Assembly (NCBI GenBank): GCA_008729055.1
Contig: SDUX01000010.1
Coordinates: 1,875,090-1,939,089, forward strand
Source of the DNA: Pyropia haitanensis
Taxonomy: Eukaryota > Rhodophyta > Bangiophyceae > Bangiales > Bangiaceae
Length of the DNA: 64,000 nt
Direction: 5' to 3'
Each line of letters opens with the position of its first letter. The first letter of the stretch is position 1. The translations under genes were made by a program, and so were the position numbers. The notes under the pieces were generated by a model that was not told where the DNA came from, did no database searches, and saw only the letters and a program-made list of their open reading frames with translations. Shown here piece after piece: positions 4,467-62,713 of this stretch.

Positions 4467-5377
4467 GCCCCCCATCGACTGGGCCCCCCCCCCCCCCTCC
4501 CTCCACGGGGTGCTGCCGCGGCAGCTCTTCCTCCAAACCCTCCCCTCGGCCACCGTCGCGCACCTGCTGGCGCCCGCCCCGGGCGACACGGTCGTGGACG
4601 TGACCGCCTCGCCCGGCGGCAAGGCCACCCACGTCGCCGCGCTGATCGGCCCGACGGGCCGGGTCGTTGCCGTGGACCGGTCGGCGGCCAAGGCCGCCGC
4701 CGTCACCGCCGCGGCCGCCCGCCTCGGCCTACACCCGCCGCGGCTGGTCGCCGTCGCGGGCGACGCGACCGCCCGCGGCGGGGTGCCACTGGCCGACGGC
4801 GCCGCCGACGGCGCGCTGGTGGACCCGCCGTGCTCGGGGCTGGGCCTCCGCCCGCGGCTGCGGCCGCTGCCGGGGGGGGTGCCGCCGCGGCGGCGGCACT
4901 GGCGGGCGCGGCGGCGCACCAGCGGCGGTTTTTTGGGCCGGCCGTCGCGGTGCTCCGGCTGGGGGGGGTGCTCGTCTACTCAACGTGCACGGTGGACCCG
5001 CTGGAGAATGAGGGCGTCGTCGCGTGGGCGCTCGCAACGTTCCCGCTCGCCTTGGAGGCGGCGCCGCTCCAGCGGGGGGGGGGGGAAGGCGCGTCGGGTG
5101 GCCGCCCGCTCACCGAGGCCACCTGGGCCGCCGCGGGCCTGACCGACAGGGGGGGGGGGGCGGGGGAGGAGGGGGTGCCGCCGAGCGGCCGCCCCGCCGC
5201 CGCCTCACCCCGGCCGAGGCGGACCTGTGCTGGGCGTGGGATGGGGCGGGGCAGACGCCGGGCTTTTTTGCGGCGCGCTTCCGCAAGGTCGGGCCGTGGT
5301 CGTGTCCGCCCGAGGCGGCGGCCGACGCGGTATTGAATGCGGGGGCGGGGGGTGTGGGCCCAGAGGACGAGGCGTGA
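3536..5377 (+). CDS. NSUN6: NSUN6-type tRNA (cytosine-5) methyltransferase, frame broken at homopolymers
   Basis: NSUN6 methylates C72 in the acceptor stem of certain tRNAs with S-adenosylmethionine. The order of parts fits that family: an N-terminal RsmB-like segment, a PUA domain (FLDGPTGEAVLRGAHVYVAG to about 4410), then the Rossmann methyltransferase with the SAM loop VVDVTASPGGKATHVAALIG, the motif IV cysteine in ALVDPPCSGLGLRP and the catalytic cysteine in VYSTCTVDPLENE. The PUA domain between N-terminus and catalytic domain is what separates NSUN6 from other NSUNs. The reading frame changes near 3630 (C run), at 4875-4880 (G7) and at 5150-5160 (G run), then ends at 5377. The start at 3536 is a guess: the first ATG that joins to the body through the C run. 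A Pro run (about 4210-4290) is inserted in the PUA domain. Confidence 0.8.
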
Positions 5378-55519: not shown

Positions 55520-55935
55520 TGATGGCGCTACAGCGGAGGAGGAAGAGGCAGAGCGATGGCGCGACGGCAGGGGAAAAATAGCAAGGTGGGTGCCTCAGGT
55601 CAGCCCTTTTTTGGGTTGGGGAGGAGAGTGGGGATCGGTCTTTACGGTTCGCGGTGATAGGAGCGCACGTACGTACCTCGGATCATTGTCATTTACTCCT
55701 TGCCTCCGACGCGGGCGTGCCCGTTGACGTACGGGTCTGGCGCTGGCCCAGCGGCAAGGCGGGGCGAAAAGAAAAAGAGAGAAAAAAAATGCATGCGGGC
55801 AACAGCGCCGCCGCGCGTGGCCGCCGCGGCGCGCGCCCCCCCCTGCCTGTCCCCCGGCTCCGGCCACGGCTACGCCCTCCGCCACCCCCCCCCCTCCCTC
55901 CCCCCCCAACGGACCCCACGCCTGCGGCGCCGCGC
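55520..55935. other. Intergenic region, convergent BCS1-like and Hint genes
   Basis: About 400 bases between facing 3' ends. No gene is supported; if the Hint gene uses another frame at its end it may reach 55689 or 55595. Confidence 0.5.
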
Positions 55936-57476
55936 TCAAGCCGACGCCCACGCAGCCGCCCGGAGCACCCACTGACGGAGCCACCCCCCCCCCCCTCCAG
56001 CCACCCCCCCGACGCGTCCAGCCGGTAGCCCGTCACGCGGCCGACCGCCGCGGCTGGCGCGAGCGCGGCGGCCGCCACCCGCGGCGGCACCGCGGCCGTC
56101 CACGTGGACGCGAGCACCCCCCCCACCACAATATCCCCCGCCGCGGTGTGCGGGTTGTACAGGCCCGCCGCGGTGCCGCGGGAGACGCGGATGACGGGGG
56201 AGGAGACCGCCGCGGCGGCGTCGGAGAGGGCGTCGCCGACCGCCACGTCCGCGGCACGGACGAGGACGCGGCGGCGGCCGCCGCCGACGGGGACGAGGTG
56301 GTCGGCGCTGGCGGTGAGGCTGCGGCCCGTCGCGGTTGTGAGCGTCACGACCGGGTGGGCGCCGCCCGGGGACCGGTGGGAGAACAAGTAGATGGGGGAA
56401 AAGGCGTCGCCGCCGGCGCCGGCCGCCACCCGCACCACGTCGCCGACGGCCAGGTCCGCCATCGTGACGGTGCGCCCCGACGCCAGCTCCACCGTCGCGG
56501 CGGCGGGGAAGCACGACGCGCCGCCGTCGCCACCCGCCGTTGCGCTGTTGCCGCCCGGCTCGCCCAGCACCGCCGCCGTGTACACGCAGAGGGGCTCCTC
56601 GTCCCAGTCATCGTCCAGGCGGTGCGTGCCGGGGCCGTGCCCGTGGTGCTTGTCTTGCATGTCGTCGTCGTCTGGGAGTTGCACCCGCAGCAGCACCGGG
56701 CCGGCGGGGACGGACACGGCGCGGCCGAGGAAGGTGGTCTTGATGGCGTCCCGCGCCGTCACGGCGATTGTCACCATGGCGGCCGCCGAGCGGCGGCGGC
56801 CGCACTGGCGGCCGGCGCTGTCCACCCCGACGAGCGCGTCCTTGCCAAACGCGTCCGCCACGGCTTTGCCAAGGCCGTCGACGACCGCGGCGGCCAGCGG
56901 CCGGACGACACGGTCGTCGTCGGCATCGTCACCGAGCGCCTCTGTGAGGGCGTCGAGGGTGGTCAGCGCGGCGGGCGGCAGCAGCACCAGCCGGCCGCCA
57001 CCCACACACGCGGCCTCGTCTTCGACCATGGCCGCGTCCTCGACGGCCAGCCCGCCGTTGCGGCCGCCGCGGCTGCCGACCACCCGGAAGCCGACGCTCC
57101 GCGCGCAGCGCCCCGTGGACGGGTGGCGGTCCCGGTTGCGGTCGCGGTGGCGGCCGCGCCCTTCTGCGGGGCGCTGCTCCCCCTCATCGTCCGTGTCGTC
57201 GCACGAGTCGTAGCCGTCGTCGGCGTGCACGCGGGTGCCGGCGGGGCACACCAGCCGCCGGAGGGTATAGGTGCGGGTGACGTCGCGGGGGCGCAGCGTC
57301 CGGCGGGAAGGCCGCAGGGCGGCCGCCCACGAGCCGCTGCCGCCGCCACCGTCGCCGCCGCCGCCGATGCCCGCCGCGTCGGTCGTGGCGGCGGCGGTGG
57401 CGGCGGCCGCGACGGCGGCCGCGGTGGCGGCCGCCGCCGCGGTTGTCCACACCTTGCGGACAGGACGGGGCGCCAT
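55936..57476 (-). CDS. Hint (Hedgehog/intein-type) autoprocessing-domain protein
   Basis: Hint domains cut the peptide bond before their first Cys and may transfer the upstream part to another molecule. The protein starts at 57476 with MAPRPVRKVWTTAAAAATAA, a basic then Ala-rich hydrophobic stretch that could be a signal peptide. The N-terminal 320 residues are unfamiliar, with paired Cys (LVCPAGTRVHADDGYDSCDD) and a later ordered part (VVRPLAAAVVDGLGKAVADA). The Hint domain begins at Cys322: ASCFPAAATVELASGRTVTM, DLAVGDVVRVAAG, LTASADHLVPVGGGRRRVLV, AADVAVGDAL, and GLYNPHTAAGDIVVGGVLAS, which is the typical Hog-type ending block. After a G run near 55984-55996 the frame changes and likely ends LRQWVLRAAAWASA at 55936. 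No cholesterol-transfer (SRR) region is recognised. Confidence 0.8.
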
Positions 57477-59103
57477 GGTGGGGGGGTGGGCGGAAGCGCC
57501 GACAGCAGGGTCAGGGATCCCTTGATGGGGTGCAGCGACCCGCGCAAAGCGAGAGGCGTGCAACGGGTGGGAACGACCAACGGCACGGGCACGAGCCGAC
57601 GGGGGCCGTCGCTGTCGGTCGTGCTGCTGCGCCGTGTTGCCTGCGTCCACACTGCCAGACGGGGCGCGCTGCTGCTATTTATGCGTGCGCTCTGCGGGCG
57701 GGCCACCCCGCCCGTGGCGCGGCCTCGACGCACCGCGGGGAGCGCCCGCACGCCACCGCCTCGTGCGCCGCGGCCGTTTTGGCGCGGTTGCGGCCGCGCG
57801 CCCCCCCTGTGCCCGGCCCTCCCCTGAGGACCACCCGCCGCGGCTGCCGCACGCTGCCACGCGCGGCCGCGCGCCCCCCGGCCGAGGTGTGCCGCGGACC
57901 CAGTCGCAGCGGCCCGGCAGCGGCGCGCCCGCCAGGCCGCTGTTCCACCCGTCGCTCGAGCGAGCGCCCCGCGCGGGAGGCGCAGACCTCTGCGTACAGC
58001 GCTGTACACGCCGGGCGGGTGCTTGTGCAACGGCGATGCGCAACAAAGTGGGTGGAGACGGGGAATAAAAGGGTGGAGACGGGGGGGGGGGGGGGGGGCG
58101 CGCACCGCGCGCGGTCGGGGATCACCCGCGGGTCCGCGGACCCGTCCCGGGGGTCCACCGTGGACGCCCGCCGACCAATGCTGCGGCCGTGATCGCCCTC
58201 AGCGACGCACCGCGGCGGGCGGTCCTCCGTCTGCCGTCTACAGCGGTTGACAGCTTGTGGCCTGTAGTGCCTATACGTAGCGCGGAGAGCCTTGCGCGGA
58301 GGCGCCGGGCGGGAGCTCCCGGGAGCATCCGCCCCCGCACCAGGCGGTGCCCACAGCCGAGGACAGCTGTGCATCATGCATACAGCGAGGCATGCATAAT
58401 ATTCGTCCACATATGGCCGTTGACAGCGGCAGCGCGACGATCCGCATCCACACCTACAGCAAGGCGGGGGGAACCTCCAACAGCGGCGGCGTCGTCAGCG
58501 GGACTATTGACCACCCTGGGGAACCGGCGGGCGGCACGCTTGCCAGGTCAGCCTGCTCTTCCCATGTTCCACGGCGATGTTGTTGTGGCAGCTGGAGAGG
58601 GGGCGCACCAATAGGCGACGGACGCGCTCGGACCGTACGGAGAGTGCTCGCGGCTGGGCGTGCTGGCTGCTACCCCACCTACTGGGCTGCTTCCACGGTG
58701 CTGCTGGCAGGATGGACCGTGCGCTCACACGGCATGATGCTGACGTGCGTAGGGCCTCCCGCTTCTGCGTGTGCTTCCCAATCAAACCGATAAAGCACAG
58801 ATGAGAGGTGGATGCCCGGCACAGGCCAGAAGAATGCAGTAGGCCGCCCGCACAAACGAGGGACCCACCAGTCGACAGAACAAGCATAGGGAAGGACGGC
58901 GTTGACAAAACAGGGCCGGCTACGCCCCTTCTCGACAATGACCTGCAAGGCCGCGGTGGTAGCCAGGATAGCTGACTTGGGGGAGAAGGCAGGTGGTGTC
59001 GGGGCGCACCCCCGCCACCCCCACCACCCCGTGGGTGACCGACGGCGCGGCGGCAGACACCGAGCCACGCCGGCCGCTACCCCTGCATCCGGAGGCGCTC
59101 CCC
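57477..59103. other. Intergenic region between Hint and RING/FBA genes
   Basis: About 1.6 kb. 57.5-58.2 kb is G+C rich and probably the Hint gene promoter; G16 lies near 58081-58098. 58.2-59.0 kb is closer to neutral composition. Several open frames exist on both strands, none with a recognisable domain. Confidence 0.5.
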
Positions 59104-60842
59104 TCAGGCGGGCCCGCCCCCGTGCCGCCGCCGCTGCTCCACCGCCCGGTTGCGCGCGTAGGCGGTGAGAATCCGCGCCACGTCCGCCGGTGGCACGGCG
59201 CCGCCCAAGTCGGTGGCCTGCCGGCGGCGCTGGCCACGGGCACCCCCACCCCCGCCGCCATTGGTGTCGCCGGCAGCGGTGGTGGCGGCGGCGGCGGCGG
59301 CGTTGGTGGCGGCGGCGGCGGCGGCGGCGCCGTCACGGCCATCCCCGGCAGGGGCGTCACGGAGGACGTCCCCCTCTGGGCGGTCGCCCAGCAGCACCCG
59401 CACCCCACACGCGGTCACCTTGGCGCCGTACCAGCCCGCCCACCCCCGCCCGTCCCGCCCCCGCACGCACACCACCACCCAGCGTGCGCCCGGCGCCGGC
59501 CCCAGCACGTGCCGCGCCGGCTCCCAGCAGTCGGCCGGCGCCGCGGTCGTGCCCGTACTCACCGCCGCCACCTCCGCCCCCGCGCCATCGTACAGCGCCG
59601 CCTCCAGCACGTACACCGACGGGCAGTCGGTGCGCGCCCGAAACGCGGCCGACACGGCGACCGGCACGCCCGCCGCGGCGGCCGCCGGCCGCACCGCCGC
59701 GTGCAGGTCCACCACCTGCGCCATCACGCACGGGTAGTAGGTGCTCACAAAGTTGCGGCCGCCCGCGGCTGGGTGCGGCACCTCCGACGCCTCGGTGGAC
59801 CACTCGAGCGGGCCCCACCCCCCCGGCCCGGCCCACCCGCCGGGCAGCGGGTACCAGCCGGCGGTGCCCGCCGTGGCCGACGGGTTGACGAGCAGGTTGC
59901 GGGAGGCGGCGGCCGGCCGGTCGGCCGCCACGCCGCCCGCGCCGCCCGCCGACGCGCACGCGGCGCAGCCGTACAGCTGCTCACACGCGGCGGCGGGGCC
60001 GTTGCGGTGGGTGGACCGCCCCGGCGGCAGCGGCTGCGTACACGCCGGCCGGCCGGGGCAGGGGGTGGGGGCGGGCAGCGCGGCGGGCGCGCCGCCGCCG
60101 CCGGCGGGCAGCGCCGCGTGGCACGCGTCGCAGTAGTGGGTGCGGCCAAAGCACACCCACGCGGACGGGCGGCAGCAGGTGCGGCACTTCCACAGGTGGT
60201 GGGGCGCGTGCGCCGGGTCGGTACACACCGTCGCCCCGTCGGCAGCAGCCGCCGCCGCCACCCCCGCCCCCGCCGCTGCCGCCGCCGCCACCCCCGCCGC
60301 CGCCCCCGCCGCCCCCGCCGCCGCCGCCATCGTCCCCGCCGGCGCGCCCGCCCCCGGCGCGACCCCCCCTCGCACCACACACGGCGGGCAGAGGCGCTCC
60401 TCTGGCGGCAACCCCCCCCCCCCCCCCCACACGCGGCGTCCCCCCCGTAAAACGGTTGCCCACACGCCGAGCACAGGTAAAACGCCGCCGCGCGGCGGGC
60501 GGCGGCCACGTCGGCGCCGGCGCCCAGCCGCTCGACCAGCAGCGCGTCGACGGCGGCGCGGATGGCGGCGGGGATGGCGGCCACGTCACGGAGGGCGGGG
60601 TGGTCGGCCCAGGCGCCACACTTGGCGCACGCGGCGCCGGCAAAGGCCAGCCGCCGCGCCGGGTCGGGCGCCGCGTGCCGCAGCTGCGCGCGCACGCAGT
60701 CCGTGTGCCAGCGGTGGCCACACGCGAGCGTGAGCGTCGCCGCGGCGGCGAGGGGGGACAGGCAGATGGCGCACTCGTCCGACGTGTCGGTAAACGTGGG
60801 GGGCGGGGGGGGGGGGGGGGGGGGTTGCCCCGCGTGACTCAT
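59104..60842 (-). CDS. RCR-like (MYCBP2-type) RING/tandem-cysteine E3 ligase fused to an FBA domain
   Basis: The protein starts at 60842 (MSHAGQPPPPPPPPPTFTDT). Residues 24-85 form a RING: CAICLSPL, CGHRWHTDC, CAKCGAWADHPAL. Then comes a cysteine-rich part resembling the tandem-cysteine domain of MYCBP2/PAM/Highwire: YLCSACGQPFYGGDAAC, a CPPC segment, CTDPAHAPHHLWKCRTCCRP, VCFGRTHYCDACHAAL and LYGCAACAS. MYCBP2 relays ubiquitin from one Cys to another and modifies Thr. From about residue 315 to 485 an FBA domain follows: NLLVNPSATAGTAGWYPLPG, GGRNFVSTYYPCVMAQVVDL, RARTDCPSVYVLEAALYDGA, and GRDGRGWAGWYGAKV. FBA domains in FBXO2-type F-box proteins bind N-glycans. The frame changes at the C run near 60416-60428. 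An Ala-rich linker lies between. The end is LTAYARNRAVEQRRRHGGGP. Likely cytosolic. Confidence 0.82.
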
Positions 60843-61690: not shown

Positions 61691-62240
61691 ATGGCCTTTG
61701 CCACGCCGCTCGGCCTTGGCCGCCGTCCCCGCGGCGCCACCCCCCGGGCCGCCCCGCGGGGGCTGGGCGTCACGTGCGCGACCCCCCCCCCCCCCGGCGC
61801 GGGCGGCGCGGCGGACCCCCCCCCCCCTCCGCGGGGGCGTCCACCCCCTCCCCCCCCCCCCCCCCCCCACCCGCGGCGTCGGGCGCCCCCCCCCCGGCAC
61901 CCCCTACACCGTCTGCGCCACGTGCGGGGCGGCGTTTGTCGTCCCCCCCACGGCGGTCTTTCGCGGCGGCGGGCGGCTCGTCTGCTGTGGCGTCTGTGGC
62001 CACACGTGGGTGCAGGCTGCCCACGCGCTCGCCGCCCTCGTCGCGGACCACGCGCTCGTCCCCTACCCCGCCGACCAGCGCGCGGCGATCGCGACCGCCG
62101 CCGCCGCGCGGCAGCGGCAGGGCATTCGCGCGTGGCGGTTACGCCGGCGGGGGGCACCGGCCGTGGCGTCAGCCGCCGCGTCGCGGCGGCGCGCGACGAC
62201 CACGGCGGGCGGCACGGCCGGCACGGCCGGCACGGCCACA

Positions 62241-62327
<87 letters not shown>

Positions 62328-62713
62328 TCGTGGTCATCGTCGTCGTCGCTGTTCCTCACCAACCTCCCCTGGTCGGCCGACGCGGCGGCGGTGGCGGCCG
62401 CGCTGGCGGGCGTGGGCGTGGGCGGCGTCACCGCGGCGGACGTGCGGCTGCTGCGGTCGCGCACGACGGGGATGTCGCGGGGGATGGCGTTTGTGGCGTT
62501 GCGGTCACCGGGGGGGGAGGGGGGGGGGGGGGGGGGCGCGCGACGCCGCCGCAGCTGGTCGCCGCCGTTGCCGCGGCGGATGGGGTGGTGGTCGGCGGCC
62601 GGCGGGTGGCGGTGCGGGTGGCACGCGGCAGGGGGGCGGCGGAGGGGGGGGGGGGGAGGGGGGGGAGGAAGCCGCCGGGACAGGGGAGGGCGCCTCGGAC
62701 TGACTGGGGGTGA
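61691..62713 (+). CDS. RNA-binding protein with zinc-ribbon and one RRM, likely plastid
   Basis: From the ATG at 61691, MAFATPLGLGRRPRGATPRA is basic and free of acids, like a plastid transit peptide. After C-run frame changes (61783-61870) a small zinc ribbon of MJ0042 type is read: YTVCATCGAAFVVPP, then LVCCGVCGHTW. A Ser run from a TCG microsatellite (62249-62300) and poly-Ala separate it from an RRM: RNP2 LFLTNLPWSADAAAVAAALA, loop VTAADVRLL, RNP1 GMSRGMAFVALR, and after a G-run frame change at 62512-62537, QLVAAVAAADGVVVGGRRVA. The end is RAPRTDWG at 62713. About 340 residues. It resembles small plastid ribonucleoproteins of the cp29/cp31 kind in having an N-terminal presequence and RRM, but has only one RRM and an added zinc ribbon. 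Confidence 0.7.
62249..62300 (+). repeat. TCG/GTC trinucleotide microsatellite in the RRM gene
   Basis: About 16 tandem TCG triplets code for poly-Ser in the frame used by the RRM protein, followed by GCG triplets (62300-62325) that code for poly-Ala. Confidence 0.85.

Follow-up and report, generated by a model that had tools for sequence, protein, structure and literature searches.

A predicted single-chain ubiquitin ligase of red algae that joins a MYCBP2-like RING-Cys-relay module to an FBA domain

In the descriptions given by PMC9527308 and PMC6769291, the animal ubiquitin ligase MYCBP2 passes ubiquitin along a relay, employs a Cys-His-Glu triad and prefers Thr over Ser as the acceptor, and its C4520S variant is reported as catalytically inactive (PMC12664034). 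According to PMC3210139, the FBA domain is found in only six human gene products, all of the F-box type or NCCRP1, and a review describes the Skp1-cullin-F-box (SCF) complex SCF-FBS2, acting with ARIH1, as esterifying ubiquitin to N-GlcNAc or to Ser/Thr of Nrf1 (PMC12203941). Here we analyzed a gene within a 64,000-nucleotide stretch of the genome of the red alga Pyropia haitanensis (contig SDUX01000010.1, positions 1,875,090 to 1,939,089; hereafter the window), the product of which carries a RING domain, a tandem-cysteine (TC) domain of the MYCBP2 type and an FBA domain. The original prediction, made from the letters of this DNA, had proposed that these parts lie within one chain of about 580 residues, and this architecture was borne out by profile searches and by relatives, five of nine of which are full length.

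The algal protein shares features with each of the closest described systems. As in the RING-Cys-relay (RCR) module of MYCBP2/PHR1 (PAM/Highwire/RPM-1; PDB 5o6c, 6t7f), its RING and TC domain account for nearly the whole crystal chain, and the equivalents of C4520, C4572 and H4583 are kept. Unlike MYCBP2/PHR1, it is a protein of about 580 residues rather than a giant, it has an FBA domain downstream, and it differs both at the presumed places of the Thr pocket and in the spacing of the last zinc site; no PHR domain was matched in the window pieces by Pfam at E values up to 10. With FBXO2/Fbs1, FBXO6/Fbs2 and FBXO44 it shares the FBA fold and profile, as well as the Trp280 and Phe/Tyr177 places, but its FBA domain is joined to a catalytic module of its own, and Tyr279 is replaced by Gly in the window and by Phe in five relatives. 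No F-box was detected in the window pieces (Pfam, E up to 10) or in the nine relatives (at 0.01). The nearest working analogue appears to be SCF-FBS2 with ARIH1, where an FBA receptor, a cysteine-charging ligase and hydroxyl acceptors are described together (PMC12203941); the algal protein would combine these by analogy rather than by membership, as one chain whose catalytic module is of the RCR rather than the RBR kind, in contrast to two ligases with Skp1 and a cullin. Judged by its sequence, the algal protein is best filed as an RCR ligase of new architecture, neither a PHR protein nor an F-box protein. No description of a RING/TC/FBA fusion was present among the matches listed in the open-access literature, a scope beyond which most subscription papers and bioRxiv lie, so that an earlier mention is possible.

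The RING and TC domains and their kinship to MYCBP2

The RING half and the TC stretch, queried separately, both led to one and the same animal protein, MYCBP2. When the RING half was compared with all PDB sequences, the best match was MYCBP2 (E 1.3e-6), with other RING ligases following from 5.6e-5. When the TC stretch was used alone, without the RING (phmmer, all PDB sequences, up to E 1), two chain sequences were returned, both of them MYCBP2, with E values of 8.8e-5 and 1e-4; the TC match weakened to 0.0011 when the query also included the FBA domain. A profile built with the nine relatives matched the MYCBP2 RING-Cys-relay crystal chain with an E value of 2.5e-38 across residues 6-259 of 263, confirming the kinship that had been suspected at the outset. 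Pfam recognized the RING on the window's own pieces through zf-RING_11 (Table 1), and the RING ligands are conserved in every alignment row covering them, while for the TC domain Pfam gave no meaningful model on these pieces. The order observed, a RING followed by a MYCBP2-related TC domain, is among the features that mark an RCR ligase.

For MYCBP2, we take the second relay cysteine, the catalytic base and the acidic residue to be C4572, H4583 and E4534, respectively, and the Phe places to be 4573, 4578 and 4586. Both relay cysteines and the His are conserved in all nine covering rows, in line with the tandem-cysteine module originally proposed; these counts use covering rows only, as P0003 does not cover C4520 and P0002 does not cover C4572 and H4583. 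The MYCBP2 numbering employed is also that used in PDB 5o6c, and C4520 is named as such in PMC12664034.

The FBA domain, the relatives and the reading frame

The C-terminal part of the protein is an FBA domain both by profile and by fold (Table 1), rather than some other fold. On the window's own pieces, PF04300 scored 52 bits (E 9.4e-14) against a curated cut-off of 32.4, and the profile with the nine relatives matched the FBA domain of FBXO2 with an E value of 2.3e-27. As described in PMC4603797, Phe177, Tyr279 and Trp280 are essential in Fbs1, and FBXO44 keeps all three places aromatic yet binds no sugar, so that conserved aromatics are insufficient for sugar binding. Among the nine algal FBA rows, the Phe177 place is Phe or Tyr and the Trp280 place Trp in every case; the Tyr279 place is Phe in P0004 and P0006-P0009 and Gly or Cys in the window and in P0001-P0003, the relatives nearest to it, and place 281 is Ala, Asn or Gln, never Lys. 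A sugar pocket thus appears plausible in P0004 and P0006-P0009 and doubtful in the window's group. The original prediction had called this FBA domain glycan-type, and what stands of that label is the retention of Trp280 and Phe/Tyr177; the specificity for glycans is brought into question by the Tyr/Gly/Trp of the window versus Phe177/Tyr279/Trp280, and by the aromatics of FBXO44.

Three protein searches identified nine distinct relatives, which are only 36-65% identical to the window's protein. The searches rank by shared five-residue words and length; 7985 best candidates were scored for the whole, low-complexity protein as the query, and single regions of P0001 reached further (4400 candidates in one search, the best 7988 in another). 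The RING, TC and FBA domains occur together in one open frame in P0004 and P0006-P0009. P0001, which begins inside the RING, and P0003, which begins inside the TC domain, have TC and FBA without a whole RING, and P0005 ends ahead of the FBA domain. By Pfam, FBA exceeded its cut-off in eight of the nine relatives and a RING family did so in three (P0002, P0007 and P0008), with four further relatives (P0004, P0005, P0006 and P0009) matching a RING family below the cut-off. The organism is known for two of the nine, both red algae: P0002, annotated as a hypothetical protein, comes from Porphyra umbilicalis, and P0006, with all three parts in one open frame, is a EukProt entry from Purpureofilum apyrenoidigerum (Rhodophyta, Stylonematophyceae). 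The names of P0003 and P0005 mark them as transcripts (EukProt, MMETSP), and P0003, named as a Trinity transcript, joins part of the TC domain to the FBA domain. Animal MYCBP2 and FBXO proteins were not among the matches listed, but since the searches depend on shared five-residue words and length, this has no bearing on occurrence beyond red algae.

The gene itself runs on the minus strand from an ATG at 60842 to a stop at 59106-59104, within exactly the limits first predicted. Its roughly 578 codons are divided between two frames: frame A (60842 to 60429) encodes a proline-rich start, the RING and the start of the TC domain as far as Cys138, and frame B (60426 to 59107) the remainder of the TC domain, the FBA domain and an Ala/Gly-rich tail. 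The two are offset from each other at a run of 17 C, where the sequence lacks one base or carries two too many. GC content by codon position is 0.77/0.66/0.92 in frame A and 0.80/0.72/0.93 in frame B, a coding-like pattern in both.

Table 1. Positions of the gene, its domains and individual residues within the window
Feature	Position	Strand	Basis
Whole gene: RING, TC, FBA, Ala/Gly-rich tail	59104..60842	-	Two frames; relatives share parts
RING domain, Cys24 to His81, frame A	60600..60773	-	Pfam zf-RING_11 2.5e-8; ligand columns kept in all covering rows
TC domain, MYCBP2 type, residues about 122-297, spans the frame break	59950..60479	-	phmmer 8.8e-5 for TC alone; profile 2.5e-38 for RING and TC
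Cys138, first relay cysteine in the mediator loop, equivalent of MYCBP2 C4520	60429..60431	-	Cys in 9/9 covering rows
17-C run (plus strand), reading frame breaks here	60412..60428		P0001, P0004, P0006-P0009 unbroken here
Cys230, equivalent of MYCBP2 C4572, second relay cysteine	60151..60153	-	Cys in 9/9 covering rows
His241, equivalent of MYCBP2 H4583, catalytic base (presumed place)	60118..60120	-	His in 9/9 covering rows
FBA domain, frame B residues 176-345	59395..59904	-	Pfam PF04300 9.4e-14; Foldseek 1umh 1.4e-13, window's own model
Tyr at the Fbs1 Phe177 place, sugar pocket	59737..59739	-	Alignment
Gly-Trp at the Fbs1 Tyr279-Trp280 places, sugar-pocket loop	59440..59445	-	Alignment; Fbs1 residues as described in PMC4603797

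Several further observations concern the relatives and the gene. The public gene model of P0002 (P. umbilicalis BU14_0166s0036) has the RING and FBA domains without the TC core, and P0001, about 90% identical to P0002 in the shared parts, has the TC core in an open frame; perhaps the core is missing from the P0002 model due to a wrongly called intron. The C-termini of P0007 and P0009 are hydrophobic, with Kyte-Doolittle values of 1.88 and 2.25 across 17 residues, and could be membrane tail anchors, although only P0009 stands out, because the helix following the RING in the window already scores 1.89; no hydrophobic end is present in the other three full relatives or in the window protein. The gene contains two long homopolymer runs at which an assembly can lose frame, 20 G at 60805-60824 and the 17 C at 60412-60428 (plus strand), and only the latter breaks the frame. 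A viral or prokaryotic origin was also considered and set aside: alignment-based scans of viral and genome contigs matched 113 and 65 pattern stretches, respectively, with 0 confirmed relatives, which is not proof of absence.

A proposed one-chain ligase weighed against its alternatives

On balance, we lean toward a single-chain RING-Cys-relay E3 in red algae, with the FBA domain as a substrate receptor, most likely for the N-glycan core, and with ester-linked ubiquitin formed without Skp1 or a cullin. In such an enzyme the RING would take a ubiquitin-loaded E2, the ubiquitin would move to Cys138 (the C4520 equivalent) on a mobile loop and then to Cys230 (the C4572 equivalent), and His241 would help esterify it to a hydroxyl group on the cargo bound by the C-terminal FBA domain. 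The cargo would most likely be the exposed N-glycan core of misfolded cytosolic glycoproteins, as for animal Fbs proteins, suggesting a role in glycoprotein quality control, and one chain would do the job of the multi-subunit SCF-FBS2 plus ARIH1. Ser/Thr or other hydroxyl chemistry would follow from the likeness to MYCBP2, and action without Skp1 or a cullin is a fair inference given that no F-box was found in the window pieces.

A number of observations weigh against this interpretation. The TC core was modelled poorly, with a predicted local distance difference test (pLDDT) score of about 45-54 in P0004, and Foldseek superpositions on MYCBP2 were loose, with root-mean-square deviations of 8.6 and 11.8. 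The ligase reading frame of the P. haitanensis window itself is broken, and the window has Gly at the Tyr279 place and Ala at the Lys281 place. The place of Glu4534, a presumed number within a loop of uncertain alignment, is acidic in only seven of nine rows (Glu in three and Asp in four, with Thr in P0007 and Pro in P0009). None of ten rows retains Cys4614 or His4620 of MYCBP2 in the corresponding column, which gives the last zinc site a spacing different from that of MYCBP2. Finally, the Thr pocket departs from that of MYCBP2 at its presumed Phe places across nine rows (Phe, Tyr or His at 4573; Tyr, Leu or Phe at 4578; Leu, Asp, Asn or His at 4586). The protein therefore does not retain the Phe cluster as aligned here, and the acceptor could differ from that of MYCBP2, a point that would concern acceptor choice rather than the relay.

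The same one-chain RCR ligase might instead employ its FBA domain to bind protein and recognize no sugar, as FBXO44 does, which we regard as possible but doubtful: the Gly or Cys at the Tyr279 place in the window and the three relatives nearest to it would fit, as would their Ala at 281, a residue that FBXO44 also has there, but Trp280 and Phe/Tyr177 persist in all nine algal rows, and the other five relatives with an FBA row have Phe at 279. It is improbable that the protein is an ordinary RING ligase, transferring ubiquitin from the E2 directly to lysine with a TC domain that is merely structural. The well-conserved RING, and the failure of Glu4534 and the presumed Thr-pocket places to be strictly kept, are what such a ligase would show, but no covering row has lost a relay cysteine or the His, although these proteins are only 36-65% identical to that of the window. 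Least probable is that two separate genes, or a pseudogene, are joined across the C run; transcripts showing two genes split there had been named in the original prediction as a finding that would refute it. While the frame of the window is broken at 60412-60428 and the P. umbilicalis model P0002 is without the TC core, P0001 (from inside the RING to the FBA domain) and P0004 and P0006-P0009 (whole) cross the break point unbroken, the Trinity transcript P0003 links part of the TC domain to the FBA domain, and the break falls inside the TC domain, so that neither half would have a whole TC fold. Given these six unbroken relatives, the two-gene or pseudogene reading was rejected as a general case, and the break most likely reflects a run-length error or polymorphism rather than a gene boundary.

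Genomic setting and significance

The genome searched comprises 52.9 Mb in 136 contigs, and counts of family matches within it are lower bounds. A profile search of this genome located one FBA place, on the ligase gene, together with Skp1 at one place, cullins in 11 match pieces (about 4 loci), F-box-like matches at 20 places, and STT3 in two pieces at one locus. SCF parts thus exist in the genome, but the FBA domain found sits on the RCR-like ligase. With P0004 as the query, two rows fell on the ligase locus, and three weak ones lay elsewhere and were confined to the RING region of P0004 (E 0.0014, 0.0045 and 0.041). The PHR domain PF08005 gave 0 matches, but control genomes were silent as well, so this is not evidence of absence. 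For Rad4/Png1 (PF03835), the one genome match was indistinguishable from XPC/Rad4 and was not used. Two places matched GH85, an endo-beta-N-acetylglucosaminidase family (C7:2979773-2980663, E 3.2e-70; C4:3112883-3113974, E 2.0e-49). Within the window, the gene that follows the ligase downstream, likewise on the minus strand, is an open reading frame at 55689-57674 with a hedgehog-type Hint module (PF01079, E 8.1e-23, residues 387-547). An open reading frame at 61695-62654 (plus) gave two matches below Pfam cut-offs, one zinc-ribbon-like (Zn_ribbon_4, 4.7e-5) and the other a weak, RRM-like stretch (0.063).

A more far-reaching proposal, which we consider unlikely, is that of a self-contained sugar-directed ligase, in which the FBA domain would grip the N-glycan core and the RCR module, with a Thr pocket unlike that of MYCBP2, would esterify ubiquitin onto a sugar hydroxyl, for example that of N-GlcNAc left by a GH85 enzyme, or onto a nearby Ser/Thr. 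If true, the protein would match SCF-FBS2/ARIH1 independently within one chain and would represent a lineage of RCR ligases separate from the giant PHR proteins, possibly with membrane-anchored forms in some relatives.

More generally, a short protein of red algae that has the two relay cysteines and, in the same chain, a substrate-receptor domain of a known type would extend the relay beyond PHR proteins, and would offer a compact enzyme of about 60 kDa for studying it. If the FBA domain binds glycans, it would be directly testable whether one E3 can, without SCF, direct ubiquitin in ester linkage to glycoproteins or even to their sugar. In these algae, one chain may both choose the target and tag it.
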